This document shows, piece by piece, positions 12,146 to 64,000 of a stretch of DNA of 64,000 bases; the stretch's first letter is position 1, and every line of letters begins with the position of its first letter. Source of the DNA: Selaginella tamariscina (Eukaryota > Streptophyta > Lycopodiopsida > Selaginellales > Selaginellaceae). The position numbers were made by a program, and so were the translations under genes. Under the pieces are notes generated by a model, which was not told the origin of the DNA, searched no databases, and worked only from the letters and a program-made list of their open reading frames with translations. The stretch spans positions 1 to 64,000 of the forward strand of contig PUQB01000179.1 of NCBI GenBank assembly GCA_003024785.1. The letters are read 5' to 3'.

Positions 12146-14711
12146 TTAAGCACCAAATTTCATCTTTGTTTTCAACTTCTCTTGTTCTTCCCACGTACCC
12201 GTACTGCCATATATCTCAGCCATGAGTATATAAGCAGATGCCTTTTTCTGATTCAAATTTACCAAAGACTTAAAAGCTATTATCCCTATCTCAACATTTT
12301 TCCATTTGCGACAAGCATTCAAGAGTGTCATCCAAGTCACTGCATCAGGATCACAAGGCATTTTCTGTAACAAAGCAATAGCCTCGCCCAATTTATTTGT
12401 ACAACCCAAAAGGTCAACCATACAGTTGTAATGCATCATAGTAGGGGTAAGTCCATACCGCATAGGCATTAGTTCAAAGTATTCCCATGCCTTTTCTACC
12501 AAACTTGCATGACTACAACATCCAAGTAAGCACAAAAATGTGATAGCATTTGGTCGAAAATCTTGATCTTGCATTACCTTAAAAAGACTAAATACGGAAT
12601 CGATGTTCCCAAACCTACCATAACCTATTAAAAGTGCATTCCATGTTGATACATCCCTTACTTGTGGATGCAAATCAAATACCTCACGAGCCTCTTCCAT
12701 GCTTCCACATTTTGCATAGAAGTCTATTAAAGATGTTACTACATGAGCATCAAATTCCCTTATCTTTGAATGGAAACTTCGTCCAATGGCCAAGGCCCCA
12801 TTCAAACCACAAGCCTTGAGAGCAGCAACATATGTCACACAATTGGGTGCACATCTGCACTCCTCTTTCATTCTGAAGAAGCAATCCAATGCAACAAAAC
12901 CCTGCCTATCATCCACATAGCCCAGAATCATAGCATTCAAGACACTACGTCTGGCTCCTGGATACTGTCAAACACACTCCTAGCATCTACCATGCTACCA
13001 CACTTGGCATACATGTCTATGAGCGTGTTCTGAACAATCTGATTCATATGGCAACCAATCTCCAAATGTATCTCTCTACCTCGTTTCAAACATTTTTTCT
13101 TTCCACTTTCATTCCATATGCTGCCAGTGACGTGCAGGCCTTGAGGGAAGCAACATATGTCACGGAATCAGGCGCACATCTTCTCTTGTCCTTCATTCTC
13201 GAAAAAAGTCCAGGGCAACAAGACCTTGTGCAATGTCTGCATATCCCAGGATCACAGCATTCCAGGACACCACGTCCGGCTCCTGGATACTGTCAAACAC
13301 ACTCCTAGCGTCTACCATACTGCCACACTTGGCATACATGTCTATGAGCGTGGTCTGCACGAACTTATTCATATGGCAACCAATCTCCAAATGTATCTCT
13401 CTACCTCGTTCCAGACACCTTTTCTTTCCACTTTCATCTCCATCTGCTGCCAGTGACGTGCAAGCCTTGAGGGCAGCAAGATAAGTCACGCCATTGGGCG
13501 CACATCTGCAGTCCTCTTTCATTCTGGAAAAGCAGTCCAGGGCAACAAGACCCTGCCTATCATCCGCATAGCCAGAATCATAGCATTCCAAGACACCACG
13601 TCTGGCTCCTGGATACTGTCAAAAACGCTCATAGCGTCCACCATGCTGCCACACTTGGCATACATGTCTATGAGCGTGTTCTGCACGAACTGATTCATAT
13701 GGCAACCAATCTCCAAATGTATCTCTCTACCTCGTTCCAAACACCTTTTCTTTCCACTTTCATCTCCATCTGCTGCCAGTGATGTGCAGGCCTTGAGGGC
13801 AGCAATATATGTCACGGAATCGTGTGCACATCTTCTATCGTCCTTCATCCTCGAAAACAAGTCCAGGGCAGCAAGACCTTGTGCAATGTCTGCATATCCC
13901 AGGATCACAGCATTCCAGGACACCACGTCCGGCTCCTGGATACTGTCAAACACACTCCTAGCGTCTACCATGCTGCCACACTTGGCATACATGTCTATGA
14001 GCGTGGTCTGCACGAACTTATTCATATGGCAACCAATCTGCAAATGTATCTCTCTACCTCGTTCCAGACACCTTTTCTTTCCACTTTCATCTCCATCTGT
14101 TGCCAGTGACATACATGCCTTGAGGGCAGCAAGATAAGTCACGCAAGTGGGCACACGTCTGCAGTCCTCTTTCATTCTGGAAAAGTGGTCCAGGGCAACA
14201 AGACCCTGCCCATCGTCTGCATATCCAGGATCACAGCATTCCAGGACACCACGTCCGGCTCCTGGATATTGTCAAACACGCTCCCAGCGTTTACCATGCT
14301 GCCGCACTTGGCGTACATGTTGATGAGTGTTGCTGCAACATACATGTTTGACTCGTTCCCAGTTTCCACTGCCTTTGCATGGACTCGTTTCCCCTGGTGC
14401 AAGTCTTTTTTCCTGGTACAGGACTTTAAGTCAGAAAGGAGATCATGGACATGAACATGTCTGATTGCTGATTGTTTCCGCTTCGTTTTCCCTGTCCTTG
14501 TCAAGGCATCAACTGCTTGGAAGTTGTTGACCATCCATTCCAAATAGCCATTATCAACCTGATTGATGTGCTTGCCTCTGTGCGTTCGAAAATCAAACAC
14601 ATCTCGCCGCATGGAGTACACTCGAAACGACCCATGTCTATGGCAGGTACAGCCAATTCCCTCACATCGCACCTGTGGCCATGCATTATCGCGACTACTC
14701 CAGGTGTTCAT
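12146..14711 (-). pseudogene. PLS-class PPR gene with E-type C-terminus, frameshifted
   Basis: On the minus strand four frames read as one pentatricopeptide repeat protein: 14711-14172 (N-terminus and first repeats), 14175-13519, 13591-13193 and 12940-12146. Typical motifs are TLIDMYAKCGSMVDARSVF, PDVVSWNAMI, LLGCCSHASLVEKAWEYF and DPDAVTWMTLLNACR. The last is the E region, and no DYW deaminase follows MAEIYGSTGTWEEQEKLK, so it would be an E-class protein. Such proteins bind organellar RNA, usually for C-to-U editing. The central part is made of about four nearly identical 320-330 bp units. The frame is lost repeatedly just after SWNAMIL or SWNAVIL (for example, one base missing at about 12942), and more stops occur at 12945-13190. 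Introns would not explain shifts at the same codon of each unit. A pseudogene, or a gene with assembly-collapsed repeats, is the best reading. Confidence 0.8.
12950..14180 (-). repeat. About four tandem near-identical PPR units of 320-330 bp
   Basis: Each unit contains (on the plus strand) CATGCTGCCACACTTGGCATACATGTC-type sequence, GGCAACCAATCTCCAAATG and CTCTACCTCGTTCCA in the same order, with only a few differences between units. Such near-identity across units points to recent tandem duplication or gene conversion. Confidence 0.8.
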
Positions 14712-15586
14712 ACTGTATCCCCAAGAAAGGATGCTATCAGGTGCACCGCAAGGGTAAGGCCGTCTACAGAACCGAAGGGCAGGAGATTCGTCTAGTTGAA
14801 CTTCTCAGGTGTATTCCACAAGTTCTCGTGGCTGACCACATGGACGTCATATGATGCATATATATGCACTAATACACAACCAACAATATATACTTTCTCA
14901 TACAACATAGTTGTCGGCCAATCACTACGAGTTTGCAAAGCAGAATATACCTGTATGGAGGCCTGGACGTTAGAGGACTGCCGGTTTGCGCATATCAGCA
15001 ATGCAGCTAGCTGCCTTCATGAATATCTTGAAGAATCCTGATGCATGAAATAAGTTTTGTGATATAGTTGCGAAATTTCTCTCCCATGCTATCGTCATTC
15101 TTGTTGTAGGTATCCAGATGATTTTGCCCTTGTCTCAGCTTCAAATCAACCATTCACAAAGCGGATTGTTCATGCTTCCGTGTATAATGTGTTGAACTTT
15201 TCAAGGTCGATACTAAAGCACAACACTGAGAGGATATTGCAGAGTCTGCAAGGTTTAGAGGATGGAAGTTTAAGCATAGATGGGAAGGTCTATTCAGACG
15301 ATGGAGCTGAAGCAAAATGTTGGGGTTGAGTGTCAGGTGGAAATCAAGCAAGGGAGGTAACTCAATGACCAACCTGCTCAACATTAGGCAAATTGCTAGT
15401 GAATTGGGATAAGTTGCCTTTCCATTAGAATGTACTGTTCATTCTTACTATCATAGTTTTTTATTATGATTTGACTCTTTACTTTTATAATTGATTGTTG
15501 TTACTTAATTAGTTGTCACTATATATCTTGAAAAACTCTAGCAAGGTAGCACTTACTTCTAGAAAATTCTTTCTTTAATTTGTATG
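14712..15586. other. Upstream side of PPR gene; no further gene seen
   Basis: Short frames at 14796-15041 (plus) and 15154-15384 (minus) show no family motif. The 5' flank of the minus-strand PPR gene should lie here, but no confident TATA box or upstream exon can be pointed out. Confidence 0.35.
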
Positions 15587-30900: not shown

Positions 30901-31209
30901 CAAACTAACATGCCTTGTCTTGTGGAAGTAAATGGTAAAGTAACCTGGACAACCATAAGGTAAAATAACCTGGCATACAAATTGGAAGCTGACTTCCAAG
31001 TGCTACCTTCTAAGTCCATAACCCACAACCCACTTATGAAGTAAGTGTACTCTGAAGAGTTATAGATCTCATGACCAAACTCTCACGCAGAATTCAGACA
31101 TTAGCCGAAAGTGATAGAGTACTTCAAGAATTTAGAACTAAACTAAACCTAAAATACACTACACTTTAGGTAGTCCTACTGACCGTAGAGAATAGGCTCC
31201 GATACCAAT
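27921..31209 (-). mobile_element. Internal region of non-coding gypsy derivative B, copy 1
   Basis: It starts on the plus strand with CACTCCCCACCTTTG (the polypurine tract, reversed), then about 380 bp matching the 3' untranslated region of element A, and ends with GGCTCCGATACCAATTG, the reversed primer-binding site, directly against the next LTR. Between these lies AT-rich sequence without any open frame above about 70 codons. I read it as a LARD-type non-autonomous element using the proteins of A/C-type elements. Compared with copy 2 it lacks about 470 bp near 30300. Confidence 0.75.
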
Positions 31210-36000: not shown

Positions 36001-36719
36001 TGTAGCTAGCATCATCAAAATATTGCGAACATCGGACAATACTTTGATTACATTGGATCTTCGAATCAACTTCTTAACATATTCATCATATGTTAATATT
36101 TGACATTTCGTTGTATTATAAGTTCATCACCATAGTCTGCTTTTGGAGTTACACTCTGAAAAACATGCACTATAATGAGAGATTATTTTACAACTTCTGT
36201 CAAAATGTAGTGTTCACTCTTATGTTTGAATATGCCCCTTCTCCGAAGTCAAAGACGCACTTCTGAACATAAGTCTTTCCCCGTTTGAACACTTTTGTCG
36301 AACTCGATTAAGCCAAAACTCAATGAACACTATCTGTTTTCAAATCATGTGTTATCCCAAATTGAAACACCTTAAAGAAAAAAAAAATTTTCAATAATGT
36401 GTAGAATAGGATATCACAAGGCCCATCTCACAAACTTAGTTTGTAAGCCAAACAAACTAACATGCCTTGTCTTGTGGAAGTAAATGGTAAAGTAACCTGG
36501 ACAACCATAAGGTAAAATAACCTGGCATACAACTTGGAAGCTGACTTCCAAGTGCTACCTTCTAAGTCCATAACCCACACCCACTTATGAAAGTGGTACT
36601 CTGAAGAGTTATAGATCTCAGGACCAACTCTCCACGCAGAATTCAGACATTAGCCGAAAGTGATAGAGTACTTCAAGAATTTAGAACTAACTAAACCCTA
36701 AAATACACTACACTTTAGG
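33044..36719 (-). mobile_element. Internal region of B, copy 2, cut by the MULE insertion
   Basis: The same order as 27921-31209, but about 470 bp longer in the middle (about 35430-35890). It stops at AATACACTACACTTTAGG, which in copy 1 lies about 55 bp before the primer-binding site. The rest of the copy-1 sequence (TAGTCCTACTGACCGTAG and onward) does not reappear after the MULE right end at 45707. Confidence 0.78.
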
Positions 36720-36830
36720 GGGTTTGACATTCCTCGAGCGCAGTTTGCCGAGCGTACGGATTTCCGTCATACCGGAATATTCCATTCCGTACAGAATATT
36801 CGTTTTCATATAAAGAATATTCTGGTGCGG
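36720..36830 (+). repeat. Left terminal inverted repeat of the MULE
   Basis: GGGTTTGACATTCC, then CGAGCGCAG, GTACGGATTTCCGTC and three GAATATTC-type palindromes (near 36777, 36797, 36818), one embedded in CCGTACAGAATATTCG. The right end repeats GTACGATTTCCGTC and CGAATATTCTGTACGG in inverted order. The match is patchy, about 80-110 bp. Confidence 0.75.
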
Positions 36831-37026
36831 CGGGCGGGCAATCATGGCGGCACGGTAATGTGTCAAAGTTTCACAAATTTGGGGGTTAATCTGACATATA
36901 TATTTATATATTTATATTTATATTTATGTTTTTATTTTTTTAATATTTATATTTATAACTATAATTATATTTTTATATAAATACCGCATCAAACTAAATA
37001 AAAATTACAATAAAAACATAACTCAA

Positions 37027-40000
37027 TCATGAAGACTCGTTTCCACCAGCCAGTGCCTCGTCGTTAATGAATGCATTGTTACGGTGTCGTGAACGTTTCT
37101 CCAAAATCTGTCTGTCGTAAACTTCGAACTCTTCAACCATTTTCTTTGCCATCTGATTAGCGTAGTCTGGTAGAACAATACTGAAAACATATTAAAGTTT
37201 AAAACCAAAGAAATGATAAAACAAATCTCACTCATCATCTGATGACTCGTATGATCTCTCTTCTGCTGACTCATCTGATGACTCGTCGTTGTGCTCCACG
37301 GACTTCTCCGTAACAACATCCTTGTCGTTTCGAGAAGGCGGATCCTGGTCTCCATCGTTGTCGCTAGCCAAAGGCAAATCCTGTGCTTCTGTTTCCATGG
37401 CCCTCTTCCACTCATCAAAAGGAGTAATCATGGAAACAACTTGATCATCCCCACCACCTTCAGCTGCTGTAACACTTGGAATGACCTTCCTGAAGACATC
37501 TCTGGCTGCTAAAACCAGATCCTTGTTGATGTCGATTCCATAACCATGTCTCCCTGTGTGAAAAGCTGCAAGAATACTAGCACCGGTTCCCACTGTTAGA
37601 TCCACAACAGTTCCACCAGGCTTTGTGAGCTTCTCCACTAGCATCGCAAACAACTTGGGAGATTTCGGGCCAATTGAAATCCTGAAAGTTACAATATTAG
37701 AACATGAGAAATAACAAACAACATTATACCATGGGAGCTGGAAATCTTCTGGCTCATCAAAAAGAAGAGTGTAGCGAGTGTCCAAGATCTCCTTGTTCTT
37801 GGCAACCTTAGAGTAGGGGGAACCAAAAATACACATGGCAATGATGCTTTCCTGAAAAAATAAACATTAAAAAATGACATTCTCAAAAAGAAGAATTACC
37901 TTTCTAGAGAAACGGTATCCCCATGACTTTGTCGTGTGCACATAACTCATCTGCAGAAACTTTAGCTTGCAAGTTTCTGCAGTGTTCTTCAAAGCTAGAA
38001 CATCATCCGGTAGCACAAACACTACCACATGGCCAGCTCTGTCTAATATCCCGAAAGCAAGGTTCACCAAGTTCTTCAGCAAAGCATCCGAGAACTTCGT
38101 GTATTGATCCACCATCCCGCCTGCCTCAGCAACGCATCCGGTAGGCGGGTCGATGACAACGAGATCAACAGCTCCCTGGATGCATTTTGGTGGAGGCTTC
38201 GCACCAAACACATGAATAGTCCAACTTGACTTGTGACTCACGATCCAATCCTCAAGCTCCTTCAATCCTGACGGAAAAGGCCTTCCGGCTTTGAAGTACT
38301 GGACTGCAAGGTTCTCTGAATCTGCATGAATGATTTCCCAGCTTCCATTTCCCTTCTCAGGCATCACCATCCTCAACATATCATCTTCTTCCAATCCAGC
38401 CGAGATGAAGGATGGGGCTGAAGAAGAAGCTTGTCCCTTGCTGACCTTGCTCGCCGATCTAGCATACCTGATATCCATCTTCACATGGAGCTTCCTTGCA
38501 GCATTGTCGTTCTTCCATAATAGCTCTCGCCGATCATCCTTGTGTATCTTATAGCTGGCCATCTCCCATTCGGGACAGTCACCAGGAAGGAAATCCAGCC
38601 AGAAAGGACAGTGTTCCACTTCGTAATCACTGATATCACGTAACAACCGGCTCCACATGCTAGAATCCTTGGTAACATCCATCCACTCTTTGAAATCTTC
38701 AGGGAGTGCATCGTTCTTCCATTTTAAAAACCTGTAAAAATAGATAAAAATCTGTAAAGAAACAAAAAAAAAACTTGCCTGAATGCCATTCTTTTTGCAG
38801 ATTTTTCCAGCTCAAATAGTCGAGGAGGTGGAATTGTCGCACCGAACTCCTTGTTCTCGAGCATGTTCTGGTACATATCCAACTTAATTTCATTGTGCAT
38901 CTTCATATACCATGTCATGAACTCCTCTACATGCTCGACCAAAAGCTCTTTAGCTGCCTCCGCGACCTGGCACGATAAAACGAATAAAAATGAAAAATAT
39001 AAATATTAAATTACCTGGAACCAGTAAGTAAAGATGTGCAAAAACTTGATGAAGTCCTTGTCAGGCCAGCCGGTGACACCTTCCTTCTTGTCTTTCTCCG
39101 TCATGTTCACCAGCTTCTCAAGAACGCCACGTTCTTGAATGTGCACAAGCTTTCCAAGGATATCAACCTTGACGTTGGAAGGAAGCTGGGACTTCGCGAG
39201 CATTTGAAGCTTCTCCAGAGTTATTTGCTTCGTTGATGGTTTGATAGTGATATCTGTGATCGCCTTGAACCAATCTTCACCGACCGCCGGATCAGCAATG
39301 GTGAGGAATTTGTTCATCCGAACTGTGAATGTCTTGTAAACGCTGGAGAGGATCTGAGATTCTGTCTGGTTTGGTTTTCTGTTCGCAAGTTTTGTAGCGA
39401 TTTGTCGCTTCAGTTGATTCTGCAAAAGAAACCGAAAATCAAAAAACAGTCAAAAGAAGAAGAAAAGATTACCTCCCAAAAAATCTTCACCAATGTCGTC
39501 TTTGGATACTCGTACCAAACGTCTTCTTTTCTGTTCGATCTCCACACTTCCACAGCTTTTCTATCTTCCTCCGGCATCCCGCGAAGAACATGATCGGTAG
39601 AAAGATCTGCAGACTTCACACAACAATTCCGTAAGAACTGCAAGGTGTGAATGATTGTTGTAGGAACCACACGAGCAGTTGCTCTGCAAAACAAAACAAC
39701 ATTTATTTAGTATTTAAATAATGAAACAAACAAGTCACTTACTCATTCAACCGATTGCAAGCAGCGATTAGTCTCTTCTCCTCTTGCACTGTGGATGCTA
39801 TGAGTGTTGCACGTACACGCAAAGTCCATTTCAAACCTGGCTCTTCAGCAAGCAAAGTGTTCAAAGCAACCCGACGATGATTCCCATCCCACACCAGAAA
39901 CTTTGCATCTTTCAGAAATCGATACCATGCAGAAAATGCTGGCTTATGCAAATCCGCTTCAAACTCTCTATCGACCTGTGCTTCTGACTCATTCCAACTT

Positions 40001-40659
40001 CGGCGTTCGTCTGCACTCAGCTGTGGTCCGAAAGATAAGGTGAACACTGACGTCTCCTGGTAAAATCCTTCAGCTCTAATCCATCCAACAAGGTCTTTCA
40101 CGCCGTCCTTAGTGACATTCCTCAAACGTTGGTGTGGGAGCAACCTGTGAACCGGGATACGCGGAGGCTCACCAAGCTCAACTGGAACGTAGTGGTCTCG
40201 TCCTTGTAGCGATGTGTCAATATCTGTGTCATACCGAATAACAAGATCCCGAAGAAGCTTGGATGGAGCCTCAAGTGTCAGCCGCTCCGGAATTGCATAT
40301 GATTCGGCAACATCCTCAGGAGCATCCAGTTTCCTCTTCTTATTGAACATTTTACTACCAAGATCAATATCCGGTACTTCCTCTGCATTACCGTGTTCTG
40401 CAGAGCTTCCTGCAATCTCCCTATTTCTAGGCATCCATTCACTCACCACAGTATGTTCATCAATGACTTGCGAACTATCCACAGGTTCATTGTTCGTCGG
40501 CATCATCTCTTTGTGTTGCAGTTGTTGCTTGGCGCCTCGGCCTCCTTTCTTGCCACGAGGTTTTGGAGCCATATCTGCAAGAGCTTCTTGGACGATATGT
40601 TCTTGAAGTGTCAAAGTCTTGTATTTATCTCGTAGTCTCTTACTCTGCCTTTGTCTCAT
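37027..40659 (-). CDS. ParB-domain DNA methyltransferase, eight exons
   Basis: Exons on the minus strand: 40659-39743, 39683-39473, 39419-39015, 38966-38779, 38731-37900, 37851-37730, 37681-37232, 37180-37027. All introns are GT-AG except intron 4, which is GC-AG (GCAAGT). The joined exons stay in frame for 1,092 codons from the first ATG, or 1,063 residues from the ATG at 40572 (MAPKPRGKKGG). After a basic, low-complexity start, a ParB-like domain (about residues 165-305) has PPRIPVHRLLPHQ and VWDGNHRRVAL. A helical middle follows. Exon 5 holds methyltransferase motif IV (DLVVIDPPTGC), and exon 7 holds motif I (VVDLTVGTGASILAAF, then GYGIDINKDL). This IV-before-I order is that of beta-class N6-adenine/N4-cytosine enzymes of the CcrM/HinfI type. 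The usual DPPY/W is DPPT here, so activity is uncertain. The C-terminus is acidic, then basic. Confidence 0.82.
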
Positions 40660-41133
40660 TCTGCAATTACAACAACTGATAAGTGTGTGTGTGAGTTGTT
40701 TTAATTTATGGACACACATTTACTATATATGTATACCTATCAATATATATAGACACACACGCACACACACACATATTTATACGTGTAATGTTGTTTGTGT
40801 GTGTGCTCACTATATAATGTTCCTTGTGTATGTGTGTAATGTTGATTATGTGTGTGTGTGTGCAATGTTGTTTGTGTTTTGTGATGTGTCTGTGTGAGAG
40901 AATATGGGTATATTCATATCTCTTCACATGTATATACAGACGAAAAAGCATCATCTCATATATACAAGTCTTAAATTCATATACTTATACATACATACAT
41001 ACATATATATATATATATAAGTCTTTTTAAGTATGTATTTAAATATATATATTTATATATACACACACACATGTATACAAGTCTAATGTTGTATAATCAT
41101 ACGTGTGTAAAATGTTATTTATGTGTGTGTGCA

Positions 41134-41185
<52 letters not shown>

Positions 41186-42123
41186 TTTCCTGCCCGAATT
41201 GGGCAGGAACCTGCCGCCAGATGGTGCGGCCGCCGCACCATCCAGGCGGCAGATTTCCTGCCCGAATTGGCAGGAAATGTGTGTGTGTGTGTGTGTGTTT
41301 GCCGAAATCGGCAATAACTCATGCGTCGGAGGTGTGTGTGTGTGTGCACACGCGCGTGCGTTTGTGAATACAAAGAAATCCTACTGAATTTGCACATACA
41401 TTCACAGAAATTACTATACACATATATAAGATTTTACCTGTAGCCATGTCGCCGTGACGCTCACACTAGCCTCTTGTCGCCGCAAAAAAAAGAACAAAAG
41501 TGCCCTCTCTCAACAATGGAGAATGGAGAAGAAGAATGGGTAGTCCTGAACCTTTACCCTAAAATCTAACACTTAACCCTTTGACCCTTAACTATAAAAC
41601 TGTGTTTAATTAAACCATACAACAGTATATATAATACTTACGATAAATAACATACTATATAAAAGGATACAAATACAAACACATATTTAAGTAAAAATTT
41701 GTATGTTAAAAAAACATATTATTATATAATTAAATAAATATTCGTGTAAAAATATGTATTTATAATTGACAATTGGTAGCGGAGCAAGTATTAATCAACA
41801 TCTACATTTGATAAAATACTGGATCAAATAACTATATAATTATAATAAATAAATTAACAGAATATAAACAAGTCATAAATAAATATGTCAGATGAATGTA
41901 GATTAGACACACATTTATTTAAAAGACAATAAAGATTGCTCTATCTCTACGTGAAGTGCTATACTATATTAGCATCTAAGATCTATACGTTTCCTTGAAT
42001 TAAATATTCGCCCACGTTGAGTCATGATTGTGAATTTTTGAAATGGTAATATCCGATATTTACCAAAAGATGATTAAGTAATGCTGTTGTTTTTCTGTCA
42101 CGTTTGTGGTAACTGCTTGCAAA
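40660..42123. promoter_or_regulatory. Divergent intergenic region of the MULE
   Basis: This 1.46-kb region separates the two divergent genes. It holds CA/TG-rich sequence (40680-41080), the nested palindrome (41137-41299) and AT-rich sequence (41560-42000). On the minus strand, ATGGCTACAG followed by GTAAAATC (41447-41431) could be a 5' exon with a splice donor, paired with an acceptor TAATTGCAG just before the methyltransferase ATG at 40659. Joined, it gives a four-codon upstream frame that overlaps that ATG. A word one base off the retrotransposon primer-binding context (GACAATTGGTAGCGGAGCAAG) lies at about 41767-41787. Promoters are inferred from position only. Confidence 0.5.
41137..41299. 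repeat. Nested GC-rich palindrome between (AC)n and (GT)n
   Basis: (AC)23 at 41137-41182 and (GT)n at 41279-41299 flank a GC-rich core. The centre, 41220-41242, is a perfect dyad with 11-bp arms (GATGGTGCGGC and its complement) around one base. It is flanked by CTGCCGCC and GGCGGCAG, and outside these by CTGCCCGAATTGGGCAG on the left and CTGCCCGAATTGGCAG on the right, each a smaller dyad. The dinucleotide flanks are themselves complementary. A further dyad GCCGAAATCGGC follows at about 41301. Confidence 0.85.
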
Positions 42124-45100
42124 ATGGCCAGGATTGTTTACGGCAATTTGGATCACGATGTTCCTGTGATAGATGGTGTTGGAATCATTCTTACTAATCA
42201 GATTAGAACGTTCTTTGGCATTTTTGATTGGCAAAGTGTTCGTCTTTTTAAACTTCTTCATGGGCAATCTGCTTTACAGATCGAAATAAACGAGGACCAA
42301 GATGCTGGAGGGAAGGATAATCCAGGATATGTTTTGTTACCGGATGAAGGACCATTGTTTAAGCTTGTCGTTGCTTCTGACTCTGAATACTCAACGTTGA
42401 AGAACCTTTTCACTTCTAATACCTGCAAAAAGGGAAGAATTCTTATCGAGGGTTCCACGATCATTCATACAAATGAATTGCCTATTGCGTATGATGGGGA
42501 TGTCATTTTTGAGCTCCCTCCTTCCGAATACAAATACAAAGGAATGAATCGGAAAGAGGATGGACATACCTGGACAGCAGGAACGACCAGCAACTGGAAT
42601 TTTCAAGCGAGGGTGTCCAGGAGCAAATGTGTTGGGAGCCTTTGCTGTATCAACCCGGACTGCCCTGCTTCTAAGGCAGGATTTCCGAACTGCACTAAAT
42701 GGAAAGGATGTATTGTTTCCCCACCTTCAATCGACAAACTGGCAAAAGGATTGACATGTTTTTTCTGTAAAGAAAATCCATTGTGCCTTGAAGTTTGTCA
42801 TGCTGTGGCGTTTTGCGTTTTCCCAGACGACATAACCAAGACTAGATTGTTTATCCACCAGGGAAAACATTCACATCCAGTGGGTGATGGTGTTTCTGCA
42901 TCGAACAAAGAAGAAATGCATATGGCGGTCCAGAATGCAACAGAAAGAACTCCCAGAGCTAGTCCAAGAGTCATCGAAATGGCAGCATGTAAAGATGCTA
43001 TCTTTGGTTTTCTATTAGATAATTCTGAGCCTGGAAGTTGGGATAAGCTCATGGATCATTTGCAACCATTATCAAACAATCGAAGGTACAATTAGAGTTT
43101 TACTTTGTGCTGAGCATTCTTTGATAATACCTTTGATGCAGAGTTCGTCAATGGGTAGCGTCCGCAAAGAGAACTGCTGCTGAAATGCCAGAGAATATTG
43201 ATGGATTATTGGAGCTGAAACGAAGGTTGTCTATCCCATTCATCCACGTGATTCACTATCCTGGGATGAATTTCCGTGGTTCAGACGACCAGGCATTAGT
43301 TTTTAAGATGACGGTTTCAGGGCCAGGTTCTGGAATCGATTATGTAAGGATGTGCCAACCTCCTCTTGGCCCTTTGCAGAAGAGTTGGGTTCTACTTGAT
43401 CACACACACCGTGTTGTTGATAAGTGGATCACTCTGGCATTGCATGTTTACGACCCAAAGTAAGATGTTATCTTTTTGTTGTTTGCTTAACTCTTTGATT
43501 ATTTTATAGTGTGCGCCGATTATCCACCATTGCTTATGGTGACATGAAGAGACAAACGGCTGGAGCTGTGGAGAAGTTTTTTCGTGCTATGTTGGATGTC
43601 TGTTCCGAGAAGGGAATCTACAATGTGCAGTTCGCTGGGTTTATGTCCGATGAAGCAGGAGCGATCTGGCAAGCAATTAGGAATGTGTTCTTTAATGGCC
43701 AAGAAATTCCTGGACGTGAACGGAGCTGTATCTTTCACTATGAACAAGCCATACAACGTGTGACAAGGAAGTGGGTCCCTCTTGAACATCAACAACAACA
43801 TCTTCAACTTTTGAGATCATGGCCAACAGCCACATCAACAACTGATCGTGAAGAAATTGAAAATAATCTTTTCCGCTTTTGGAATGAAAATGTGAAGGAT
43901 GTTGGAGTTATGCAGACGTGGTTTTCATGGTGGGAAAGACAGAAGAATCATATTTCAAATGTTGTTCTTGAAAGCATGCCGGAGAATGCTGCAAGGGTTG
44001 TGCCCATGACAAACCAGTCGGAGTCTGTTCACGGAAGATGGAGGAGGGCTAGAGATTCAAAATACATTTCATTGTACCAAGCTACAATCCACGACCTGAC
44101 TGAATCAGTGCGACAATGTGCTCTTGTGAAGGCTTTTAGAGATGGAAGGTATAGTGGTTCCGGGCCGACTTCAGAGGAGCTCTCAGCAAGGTTCGAGAGA
44201 AGAATGTCAAATGCTAACTCAACAACACCTACAGCAAAGGTTATCATCGACTTAGTTGAAGATGTTGCTCCATCAAGCATGCAGGATACTGCTTTTGTGG
44301 CTGCCACGAATGTTGAACATCGCACTGTGCAAAGAAATATGGGGTCAGAGGCTGAACGATCCCACCGACCGGACATCTTCTATAGTGAACAGGTTATTCC
44401 AACACAGTGTAGACGGAAGCGACGATTGGATTTTCAACTTGCAGAAGAACATGAAGAATATGTTCTGGTTGAAGAACAAGATGTTACACCTGGACAATGG
44501 GCGATTAGAAGATGTGGTGAAAGAAGTTCTGTGAAATGTCTGGCAGGCTTTCCCTCTTCAGGAGGTCAGTGGAGTGCTTGTGACAAAAAGATCAGTCCTA
44601 GTGGTAATCGAGTGGCTGCTCCTTGTTTTTTTGGAAGGATCAGATACAATGACAAAGAAACTGGTGAAGAATGCTTTCGCTCACAAATGATGTATTTTTG
44701 TCCAACAAACATGCTTTGCAACAGACATCCAAGACCAACTATTGTTTCTCCGCCAGCTTCTACCTCGGTTTGGAAAGTTCAAGTGGGCACGAAGCTGATA
44801 GCAATGGAGATCAATGATCTGGCAAGATCAGGTTTTATGCTAGCTGGGCTTCCTTCAGCTCATGCAGGAGTGCCAGGTTTTTCAACACCTCATGTTCCTT
44901 CAGTTCCTGTTGGAGTCACTGGATTTTCAACACCCCTGCACAATTTCGTGGACCTCCTGTTCCTGCAAGTGGTCGTGCAACAAGAACACCTTTAGGGATG
45001 TCTAAGAAACAACAGGTAAGTTTTGAAGCATGTTTGACGTTGGGAGCATATGTCGCAGAAGTTGACGTGGTTGATCCTCCAACATGCATTCGCTTCAGAG

Positions 45101-45342
45101 TATGTGACAACGACCATACATCTGCTTGGGTTGTCATTTGTAGCGCACCATCTTGTTCATGCTCGGAGTTCTGCAATGGTCGTCAGTGGGTGCCTTGCAA
45201 ACATATGTATTTTGTTTACAAGCGTGTACTGGGAGCTGATCCTCGAGTTGTCAAGCATTTGCAACGTCGTACACTTGCACCCCGTGAACTAAGTTCTTTA
45301 TTGATGCTACCAAGGAACCTCCATCCTCCACCATCTATTTAG
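42124..45342 (+). CDS. Mutator-like transposase with zinc finger and SWIM finger
   Basis: Exon 1 is 42124-43085, intron 1 43086-43141, exon 2 43142-43459, intron 2 43460-43509, exon 3 from 43510; both introns are short GT-AG and phase-consistent. The N-terminal half has a C/H zinc finger of the WRKY-GCM1/FLYWCH type found in MULEs (CVGSLCCINPDC, then CFFCKENPLC, ending FIHQGKHSHPV). The MULE core follows, with candidate catalytic residues D in WVLLDHTHRV, D in FMSDEAGAIW and E in MTNQSESVHGRW (codon 44021), plus the CIFHYEQAIQR box. The C-terminal SWIM finger reads CSCSEFCNG, then WVPCKHMYF (45160-45220). The SWIM frame is shifted relative to exon 3. One indel near 44930-44945, or an intron I cannot place, separates them; otherwise the gene is open. 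It would bind the element ends and cut and rejoin DNA in the nucleus. Confidence 0.8.
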
Positions 45343-45509
45343 TGTGTTTGGTTTGTTTTCAAACAGCTTCGGTTTTATATTTGTTATTTCAAACTTATAA
45401 TTTTCAATATAAATTTTAATGGTAATTTTATGTTTAGCATATTTTTAAGTAATTTAACATATATTTCTTTAAATACAACAAAAATATACTACCATATTTT
45501 GTATGCATC

Positions 45510-45707
45510 CGCCGCACTAGAATATTCTAGAATATTCTTGAAAATTTTGGAAGGTCCAATTGTGTGTACACTTGGCAGTACGAAAAATTTCCGTACAGAA
45601 TATTCGAGGATATCTAGACGGAAATCGTACGGAACAACAGAATATTCAAGAATATTCAGAAATCTAGGTCAAGCTCGTTGACCTGCGCTCGAATTTCGCC
45701 GTGCCCC
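45510..45707 (-). repeat. Right terminal inverted repeat of the MULE
   Basis: It contains five GAATATTC-type palindromes (near 45518, 45528, 45597, 45638, 45649), CCGTACAGAATATTCG, GACGGAAATCGTACGG and CTGCGCTCG before the terminal GTGCCCC. These are inverted matches to the left end. The next bases, TACCAATTGGTATCAGCC, look like a retrotransposon primer-binding site rather than a 9-bp target duplicate. Confidence 0.7.
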
Positions 45708-61495: not shown

Positions 61496-63356
61496 TGTCA
61501 TAGTTTTACTATGACTCGACCCTTTACTTTGGACGTTGACTTTGTTACCTACTGTACTATGTTGATGGACCCTAGATGTAGTAGGAAACAGGCCCGCTTA
61601 GTGCACTTGGGTATCTGATGATGGTCCGGCCGGGTGTCATTAGGTATTTGCAGGAAACTCTAAGCGAAGCTAGAACTTACCTTCTAGAAAACCCACCCCC
61701 AATTTTAACGTCCCGAATAGGTTGATTGGTTGTTGCAGATGAGTTTGGCGTGTTAAGTAGGGTTAGGAACACCTGTAGGGTTGACCTAACCCTAGGGTTG
61801 CCCTAACCCACGCCCTAAAACCCCCACCCCCTTGGGTAGGGTTTAGTTATAGGCTCATATTGCTAATTTGTCTAAGGGGCTAAAATTCACTAACACATAT
61901 AGGAAAAGAGGGGGGGGCTCCGTCACATAAATAAGGTAGAGTATATGTAGGAGAGCTCCTGGGTTCATGACTGAGTTCGTTGCTCTTCTGCCGGTGCAAG
62001 CTTTAGCTTGTGTCGTTAAGGTACAACCCTCTGTTGTACTGCCCTAACTTCCAGACGACAGGGGTACGTCCCACCTTCGGGGTAGCTTACCCTTAACGTT
62101 GGCGAATCCATGCCTGGGAGGACTGGTCGAGATGCACATTTCAAGAAGCATAAGGCTTGTCTCTAGCCTCCTCCTCCACGTCAAGTTAGGAGCAACACTC
62201 ACAGCTAACCAGGGCACGTTCGTGTCCTTGTCCAACTGTGGTCGTGGGTTCTTGATTGATAAGGGTTTCCTTACCGAGTCTTGAGGGATAATTGAGGGGT
62301 TCTAGAGTTGGCATTTAGGAGCCACGTTTGTGGCACTTGGTGCAACTCTTGAATCTAAGGGCTATGGCATGATAGCCCACGTCGAGGAAGGCAGTGTCAC
62401 ATGGAGATGTGACATTGGGCTAAACATCACATGGTGCAACACCTGAGGCACGCCCTTTAGGGGTTATGTCATGGGCTTGTCGCCAAGGGGTTGGATACCT
62501 TAGCAAATAGACATGCTTGTGCTTGCACTAGGGTGCTAAGCCTTGGGCATCCGCTCAAGGGAGGTTAGGTCTCATAACTAGGTGTGCTTTGACACACTTG
62601 GCTAGGGGAGTGTTCTCCTTGGAATTCAAGGGTTGAACAACCTAAGCATATTAGCAGGAGCCCTTTCGTGAGGCACTCGCAAGGTCATGTGCTTAGGGTT
62701 ATCCCAAACCTAGCCTTAGGGAGTTTGCTTAGCAGAACACTCGTGTCCGCCTACGGCGCACACTCGTGTCCTCACTAAGTACTAGCCCTAGGTCTAGGGT
62801 ATAACTTGGCCACTTAGGGGTTAGTCGTGGTTCAAGGTACCCCTTGTCACCCTAAAGGGGTTGTACTCCCAGATGAGGGTGATTCCTCAAGGGTAAGTGA
62901 CGATGCCTTAGCTCTGTCTAGGGGTATGTGTGGAACACACATCTCCTTGATGGGGGTTAGGACATGAGCCTGTCTAGGTCTTCTAAGGCAAAACCCTAAG
63001 TCAACTAGGGTTATCCCTCAAGGGTTTGGGGGTAGACACTCTAGGGAGACTTAGGCTAAACCCTAAGTCAACTAGGGTTATCCCTCAAGGGTTTTGGGGG
63101 TAGACACTCTAGGGAGACTTAGGCTAAACCCTAAGTCAACTAGGGTTATCCCTCAAGGGTTTTGGGGGTAGACAATCTAGGGAGACTTAGGCTAAACCCT
63201 AAGTCTCTTGTCCACTTGGGCATTAGAGTCTAACCCTAGGGGTCGTTAGGGTTGTTCTGGGAAACTTAGCGTTGCTCACACAGGGTGATGACGCTGAATG
63301 GCCATCTAGCAGCCACGTGTTGCCACGTGTTGGCCCTTTGGGTTAAAACTCTGACA
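61496..63356 (+). repeat. B-type gypsy LTR, copy 3 (5' LTR)
   Basis: Starts TGTCATAGTTTTACTATG, ends AAAACTCTGACA, 1,861 bp, with an 8-G tract (61910-61917) before CTCCGTCACATAAATAAGG. It carries three 68-bp subrepeats (about 62990-63190) where copies 1 and 2 have two. It is followed by primer-binding site TGGTATCGGAGC at 63359-63370, so it is the 5' LTR of a B element that runs out of the window. It breaks chromovirus C inside gag. Confidence 0.88.
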
Positions 63357-63358
63357 AT

Positions 63359-63404
63359 TGGTATCGGAGCCAGTTCTCTACGGTCAGTAGGACTACCTAA
63401 AGTG
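63359..63404 (+). mobile_element. Start of a B internal region, ending at the MULE target
   Basis: Primer-binding site followed by CAGTTCTCTACGGTCAGTAG and GACTACCTAAAGTG. It is the reverse complement of the 31155-31205 region. It is cut after CCTAAAGTG (63396-63404) by the second MULE copy. Confidence 0.8.
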
Positions 63405-64000
63405 GGGTTTTGACATTTCCTCGAGCGCAGTTTGCCGAGCGTACGGATTTCCGTCATACCGAAATATTCCATTCCATACAGAATATTCGTTTTCATATAA
63501 AGAATATTCTGGTGCGGCGGGCGGGCAATCATGGCGGCACAGTAATGTGTCAAAGTTTCACAAATTTGGGGGTTAATCTGACATATATATTATATATTTA
63601 TATTTATATTTATGTTTTTATTTTTTTAATATTTATATTTATAACTATAATTATATTTTTATATAAAACCGCATCAAACTAAATAAAAATTACAATAAAA
63701 ACATAACTCAATCATGAAGACTCGTTTCCACCAGCCAGTGCCTCGTCGTTAATGAATGCATTGTTACGGTGTCGTGAACGTTTCTCCAAAATCTGTCTGT
63801 CGTAAACTTTGAACTCTTCAACCATTTTTTGCCATCTGATTAGCGTAGTCTGGTAGAACAATACTGAAAACATATTAAAGTTTAAAACCAAAGAAATGAT
63901 AAACAAATCTCACTCATCATCTGATGACTCGTATGATCTCTCTTCTGCTGACTCATCTGATGACTCGTCGTTGTGCTCCACGGACTTCTCCGTAACAACA
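63405..64000. mobile_element. Left end of a second ParB-methyltransferase MULE copy
   Basis: GGGTTTTGACATTTCC, then CGAGCGCAG, continues as a near-identical copy of 36720-37310 to the window end. Differences are a few substitutions and small indels. In the last methyltransferase exon (63712-63866 region, minus strand) two bases are missing relative to copy 1 (GCAAAAAATGG against GCAAAGAAAATGG), which shifts the frame before MVEEFKVYDRQ. The C-terminal peptide after the shift is otherwise kept. The element continues beyond the window. Confidence 0.88.

Follow-up and report, generated by a model that had tools for sequence, protein, structure and literature searches.

MULE-like transposons of a vascular plant, Selaginella tamariscina, that probably hold a ParB-like/methyltransferase-fold protein as a standing accessory gene

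A two-gene transposon lies at positions 36720 to 45707 of a 64,000-nucleotide stretch (the window) of contig PUQB01000179.1 from Selaginella tamariscina. This element, of about 9 kb, is a copy of a family (family A) with two divergent genes: on the plus strand a transposase gene resembling those of Mutator-like elements (MULEs), and on the minus strand a spliced gene whose product has a ParB-like region and a DNA methyltransferase fold. We consider it probable that family A belongs to a group of two-gene MULE-like transposons in which the ParB-like/methyltransferase-fold protein is a standing accessory gene, with a role directed by short repeats (iterons) at the element ends. Genes joining ParB and methylase domains have already been published from algal transposons; to judge from the accessible parts of that literature, the new features are the MULE-like host element in a vascular plant, the selection between families, and the end iterons that the families share.

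A search of the assembly (300,702,823 bases in 1391 contigs) with the right end of the element gave 40 places at 98 to 100% identity (the best 40 of 136 candidates), and 21 copies were analyzed, namely, the window copy and the next 20 right-end places in order of score. Nineteen of the 20 fetched copies span the whole element, both genes included, between the same two ends, from which the boundaries were drawn: the element starts with GGGTTTGAC and ends with GCCGTGCCCC. In the 20th (L026), the left part is displaced and the methylase gene lies further along the same contig. Two copies with identical flanks (L009 and L010) may be one insertion seen twice. The 20 sequences other than L026 diverge by 0.01 to 0.58% from their majority sequence, and family A is, on sequence grounds, a young family.

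MULE target-site duplications are about 8 to 11 bp long, and those of family A agree. Of the 20 two-ended copies (the window copy included and L026 excluded), 14 are flanked by direct repeats that match perfectly over 8 bp or more when the ends may shift by a few bases; read by eye at fixed ends, most are 9 bp. The direct repeat of L011 is imperfect and that of L025 is 6 bp, and no matching direct repeat was found at the window copy, L017, L020, or L022. The initial annotation had bounded the element by inverted repeats. Its bounds proved real, but the terminal inverted repeats amount to a short, imperfect likeness of the two ends, and no long ones belonging to the element were among the 25 longest of 121 repeat pairs. 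MULEs without long terminal repeats exist.

The ParB-like/N6_N4 methyltransferase-like gene (37027 to 40572, minus strand) encodes 1063 amino acids in a spliced frame without internal stop. Its eight exons lie at 40572-39743, 39683-39473, 39419-39015, 38966-38779 (followed by a GC donor), 38731-37900, 37851-37730, 37681-37232, and 37180-37027. The divergent layout and the eight-exon open frame that had been described from the letters stand as they were. The seven introns are 47 to 59 nt long; six are GT-AG, and one (38732-38778) is GC-AG, with the GC donor present in all 20 copies that cover the site. Splice signals are identical in 18 of the 19 other full-length copies, with one signal differing in L027. 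The frame is open in 9 of the 21 copies, and 3 have both frames open; some of the one-base indels among copies may be assembly errors.

The assignment to a methylase fold was put to a profile search and upheld: the Pfam profile N6_N4_Mtase (PF01555) matched the family A protein with 34.1 bits, above its cut-off of 26.7 (E 3.5e-8), and the methylase part matched phrog_67, a group of phage DNA methyltransferases, at E 1.2e-10. The best stretch of the PF01555 match (residues 868 to 921) falls on motif I and the S-adenosylmethionine (AdoMet) region, VVDLTVGTGAS to GYGIDIN, at approximately 37520 to 37625 (minus strand). Motif IV is atypical and reads VVIDPPTGC (38134 to 38160, minus strand). The part of exon 1 taken to be ParB-like (39743 to 40272, minus strand) contains the box K-F-x-x-W-D-G-N-H-R, and a long middle region that belongs to no named family separates the two domains.

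The MULE-like transposase gene (42124 to 45342, plus strand) has exons at 42124-43085, 43142-43459, and 43510-45342. In the window copy it carries a one-base frameshift near 44940, upstream of the SWIM part; the frame is open over 1037 amino acids in 7 of the 21 copies. The claim of a MULE transposase with a SWIM finger survives at the level of motifs, read by eye: the transposases of family A and of two further families described below (B and C) have D, D, C/H, and E in MULE order, followed by a SWIM finger. It does not survive at the level of profiles. The Pfam MULE profile (PF10551) matched the family A core below its cut-off (E 0.013, 16.4 bits against 27.6, positions 2 to 96 of 99), as did the SWIM profile (E 0.66), and no Pfam MULE match was obtained with longer pieces of A, the third exon of B, or P0001. 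The last of these is the sole transposase relative found in a set of 5.8 billion proteins (30% identity, E 5.7e-56); it keeps both D positions, and conserved Cys, His, and Asp positions are common to it and the window transposase. Pfam includes a KDZ transposase profile, and a KDZ transposon was considered, but the Pfam scans of A gave no KDZ match. We call the element MULE-like.

The methylase gene travels with the transposase. When the genome was searched with the methylase protein, 43 places were scored (the best of 2351 candidates, with 102 matches grouped). For 24 of them, a listed right end is no more than 9.5 kb away, and 18 more adjoin transposase or right-end sequence (8 of the 9 places checked first and all 10 checked next, among them the one that had failed before). 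At the last, on contig C336, the transposase part lies some kilobases off, behind extra sequence. All 43 thus lie with a transposase or right end, one across extra sequence, in a list of best candidates beyond which distant methylase genes outside such elements may exist. These results support the methylase-fold gene as a stable part of family A, as the initial annotation had proposed in setting aside a one-off capture. We found no copies whose ends exclude the gene, no predominance of the gene outside such elements, and no rejection of both domain calls by profiles, any of which the annotation had named as counting against it.

At least two further families in the genome, B (L048) and C (L049 and L050), both only distantly related to A, have the same head-to-head layout. 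The family B transposase is 41.8% identical to that of the window over 825 columns, the family C transposase (L049) is about 40% identical in its longest piece, and the methylase proteins of both are some 23 to 28% identical to the window protein in long pieces. PF01555 matched the family B protein with 38 bits, against the cut-off of 26.7. Motif I is common to A, B, and C, reading DIGSGTGSS in the last two, and so is the ParB-like box. The methylase part was seen at six further loci; L054 belongs to family B and the other five (L051, L052, L053, L055, and L056) to family C. A genome search with PF01555 returned 739 candidates, and all of the best 150 that were scored passed the cut-off. At 12 of 12 more methylase places, picked by hand from that listing and mostly of the commonest score, a family B transposase lay at the expected distance with 98 to 100% identity; at least 15 family B loci were seen. 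Inside the family C element at L050 (3869-3952), we also detected a 28-residue piece that is 93% identical to residues 833 to 860 of the window methylase and is possibly a fragment moved between families.

The open frame had been read as a sign of selection. Family A alone gives no such signal, since nonsynonymous-to-synonymous ratios among its copies are at or above the neutral value: singletons in the 20 sequences without L026 number 29 nonsynonymous to 9 synonymous in the methylase gene (ratio 3.22 against 2.66 expected) and 26 to 7 in the transposase gene (3.71 against 2.61). The evidence for selection comes instead from families B and C. Between the B gene and seven C copies, the proportion of synonymous differences (pS) in the methylase is 0.78 to 0.86 and that of nonsynonymous differences (pN) 0.21 to 0.25 at well-aligned codons, a filter that acts on residue identity and lowers pN; unfiltered, the values are 0.80 to 0.85 and 0.26 to 0.37. 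The transposase values are similar (pS 0.78 to 0.81 and pN 0.22 to 0.25). Because pS lies far above pN, the methylase-like gene looks selectively maintained, by purifying selection between B and C, with synonymous sites too saturated for an exact ratio and the C copies related rather than independent. Decayed C copies raise pN, and the test is therefore conservative. By piece, measured between B and L049, L056, or L052, pN is 0.26 to 0.36 in the ParB-like part, 0.22 to 0.24 in the middle region, 0.32 to 0.33 in the motif IV piece, and 0.175 to 0.21 in the motif I piece, the lowest of the four.

The third line of evidence is an 8-bp palindrome, GAATATTC, which in each of the three families forms clusters at the left and right ends of at least one copy. 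In the window element, all eight occurrences fall within 260 bp of one or the other terminus, three at the left (36775, 36794, and 36815, spanning 36775 to 36822) and five at the right (45520, 45530, 45598, 45640, and 45650, spanning 45520 to 45657), with none in the 8.4 kb between. First-order resampling gives an expectation of 0.024 in these ends (Fisher p 1.2e-10, for an end zone chosen after the repeats had been seen). Many spacings are 10 to 12 or 19 to 22 bp, about one or two helical turns.

A family B copy (on C639) has all five of its GAATATTC sites in two clusters about 8 kb apart that border the gene pair, the left one inside a stretch common to the B copies L059 and L061. L059, a stretch adjoining L054, has three iterons, and L061 also has three, at the corresponding position, plus one farther outward. 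A family C copy (on C14) has two at the left and two at the right, inside sequence that it shares with L050 or L060, while another two lie some 190 bp farther outward, outside the shared stretch; end iterons occur in five of the seven family C loci. Among all 256 8-bp palindromes, GAATATTC is the only one present in all seven end regions compared (the left and right of A, the left of B, and the left of four copies of C); TTCTAGAA is present in five.

We postulate that the GAATATTC iterons are bound by one or other of the element's proteins, most probably by the ParB-like one, and that the bound protein gathers on the element ends. Once bound, it would help the transposase to assemble there or would mark the end DNA, the mark being N6-methyladenine or N4-methylcytosine, or would take part through AdoMet-dependent binding only. 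The outcome would be an element that escapes silencing or is licensed to move. A bolder version strikes us as rather unlikely: that the group carries its own marking system, not based on 5mC, in which the ParB-like methylase recognizes the terminal GAATATTC and adds N6-methyladenine or N4-methylcytosine marks to it, so that many copies evade host silencing or control its timing by means of a mobile epigenetic signal owned by the element.

Several results weigh against an iteron-directed role for a ParB-like methylase. The ParB call stands on the DGNHR box in A, B, and C but not on profiles: no ParB profile rose above its cut-off in Pfam, NCBIfam, or PHROGs scans, and the nearest, DndB, matched weakly and in family A only (E 0.001 to 0.037). 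Exon 1 folded poorly from its single sequence (mean predicted local distance difference test score of 43), and with this low-confidence model none of the 50 structure matches listed was ParB-like by title and none reached E 0.001. Motif IV reads DPPT in A and DLPN in B and C, lacking the aromatic residue, and the piece that holds it ranks with the least conserved of the protein when B is compared with C. As for the iterons, families B and C, which are the independent tests of the end clusters, contribute one whole-length copy each; none were seen in the fetched stretches of L052 and L056 (family C) or L054 (family B), which are cut near or before the place; and six more GAATATTC sites lie in the roughly 54 kb of the window outside elements. 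The iterons could also be sites for the transposase only.

Two accounts of the methylase fold compete within this framework. In one, a working N6-adenine or N4-cytosine methylase marks the DNA of its own element, for instance, an A or C in GAATATTC, so as to avoid silencing or control transposition. We regard this as a serious candidate, though one we would not wager on. The PF01555 matches in A and B and the well-kept motif I piece speak for it, and a self-binding, self-modifying role has been suggested for a comparable Ectocarpus protein in the accessible part of the report (PMC12477816). Methylation by the accessory protein is possible, but the DPPT or DLPN found at motif IV in all three families makes its catalysis doubtful. 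The usual motif IV of N6 and N4 methylases is [DNS]PP[YFW], with an aromatic residue.

That departure is what favors the other account, to which we lean no more firmly: transfer activity would have been lost, leaving a fold that binds DNA or senses AdoMet and acts as a scaffold assisting the transposase on the element ends, much as METTL14 serves METTL3. Throughout the three families motif IV has the form D-x-P-[TN], yet the protein appears to be under selection, and the iterons sit at the ends where such a scaffold would act; a dead enzyme, however, would not strictly need a motif I so well kept. A third idea seems improbable to us: action of the protein in trans, on the chromatin or defenses of the host rather than on element ends, for example, through a genome-wide mark. 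The many copies in the genome would suit it, and retrotransposon-borne C5 methylases of dinoflagellates and charophytes that methylate CG de novo offer a parallel (PMC5890265, accessible part), but if the methylase protein is the one that binds the end iterons, these argue for a function directed at the element. A passenger gene captured once, in the manner of a Pack-MULE, and serving no function for the element would fit the near-neutral ratios among window-family copies, but we reject it as highly improbable given the pairing in three families and the excess of pS over pN between B and C.

Among known systems, MuDR/Mutator of maize has a MULE-type transposase, target duplications of about 9 bp, and a second element-borne gene, mudrB. 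Family A resembles it in its MULE-like transposase, target repeats of about 9 bp, and second gene, and differs in its short imperfect terminal repeats and in the ParB/methylase-like nature of that gene. The pairing of ParB and methylase in one protein is known from phages, and the phrog_67 match links the methylase part to phage enzymes; unlike phage proteins, this one comes from a spliced eukaryotic gene and has the long unnamed middle region. Residues 1 to 964 of the methylase protein, searched against phage proteins, gave nothing convincing (best E 2). Against the set of 5.8 billion proteins, the methylase protein had no relative among the best 8000 word-sharing candidates (E up to 0.001), and its region 690 to 940 had none at E up to 10 among 2192 candidates. 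No match came from viral contigs, for which the queries were the transposase and P0001 only. PDB sequence searches returned methylase chains only at E 0.13 or worse, and nothing relevant with the ParB region and its three-family profile.

The closest published counterpart is Sola1-1_Ec32, a giant transposon of Ectocarpus with a ParB-like and N4/N6 methylase gene (PMC12477816, which, on the transposons of green and red algae, refers to Iyer 2011 and Petroll 2025). According to the accessible part of that report, its accessory gene, like ours, lies on the strand opposite the transposase (1104 amino acids in Ectocarpus) and joins the two domain types in one protein. The likeness is one of domain types: Sola1-1_Ec32 is a 21.5-kb element of the Sola1 superfamily, whereas family A is MULE-like, 9 kb long, and from a vascular plant, and the Selaginella elements form three families with shared end iterons. 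As the accessible text of PMC5890265 describes them, retrotransposons of Symbiodinium and charophytes carry DNA methyltransferases (DNMTs) able to methylate CG de novo; they share with family A the possession of a DNA-methylase-type gene but are retrotransposons with C5-cytosine DNMTs. In literature searches limited to open-licence papers, the titles and abstract openings listed mentioned no MULE with a ParB-methylase gene and none in a land plant.

The idea of self-marking factors, raised as a possibility for algal transposons, appears again in at least three MULE-like families under what looks like long-term purifying selection. The families offer a testable system, with near-identical copies, some of them open in both frames, and a defined palindromic candidate site at both ends. 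If methylation proves true, it would bear on the disputed N6-methyladenine and N4-methylcytosine of plant nuclear DNA; if the enzyme is dead, a methylase fold would have been turned into a transposition factor.

A further copy of family A, locus L017, has its left end at 63404 to 64000 (plus strand) and runs past the window edge. It is 98.2% identical to the window element over 602 columns, in agreement with the earlier assignment to the same family, and has early stops in both gene models. The left ends of the window copy (36650-36720) and of this one (63340-63410) abut opposite halves of one repeat, an unbroken version of which lies near 31160-31170. The two copies share, by eye, the 9-bp left flank CACTTTAGG in opposite orientations, without a matching right repeat, an arrangement that suggests aberrant transposition or rearrangement using two left ends.

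Elsewhere in the window element, a GC-rich inverted repeat flanked by CA/TG runs (41160-41301) lies between the divergent genes, in the presumed shared promoter. Near the right end, GGTCAAGCTCGTTGACC (45667-45683) contains an inverted pair of TTGAC, and TTTGAC occurs at the left end. We take the pair to be W-box-like, and it might be a candidate site for the zinc-finger-like part of the transposase. Outside the element, several open frames stand in tandem among repeats at 12146-14804; judging from their translations, these are presumably pentatricopeptide repeat (PPR)-like.

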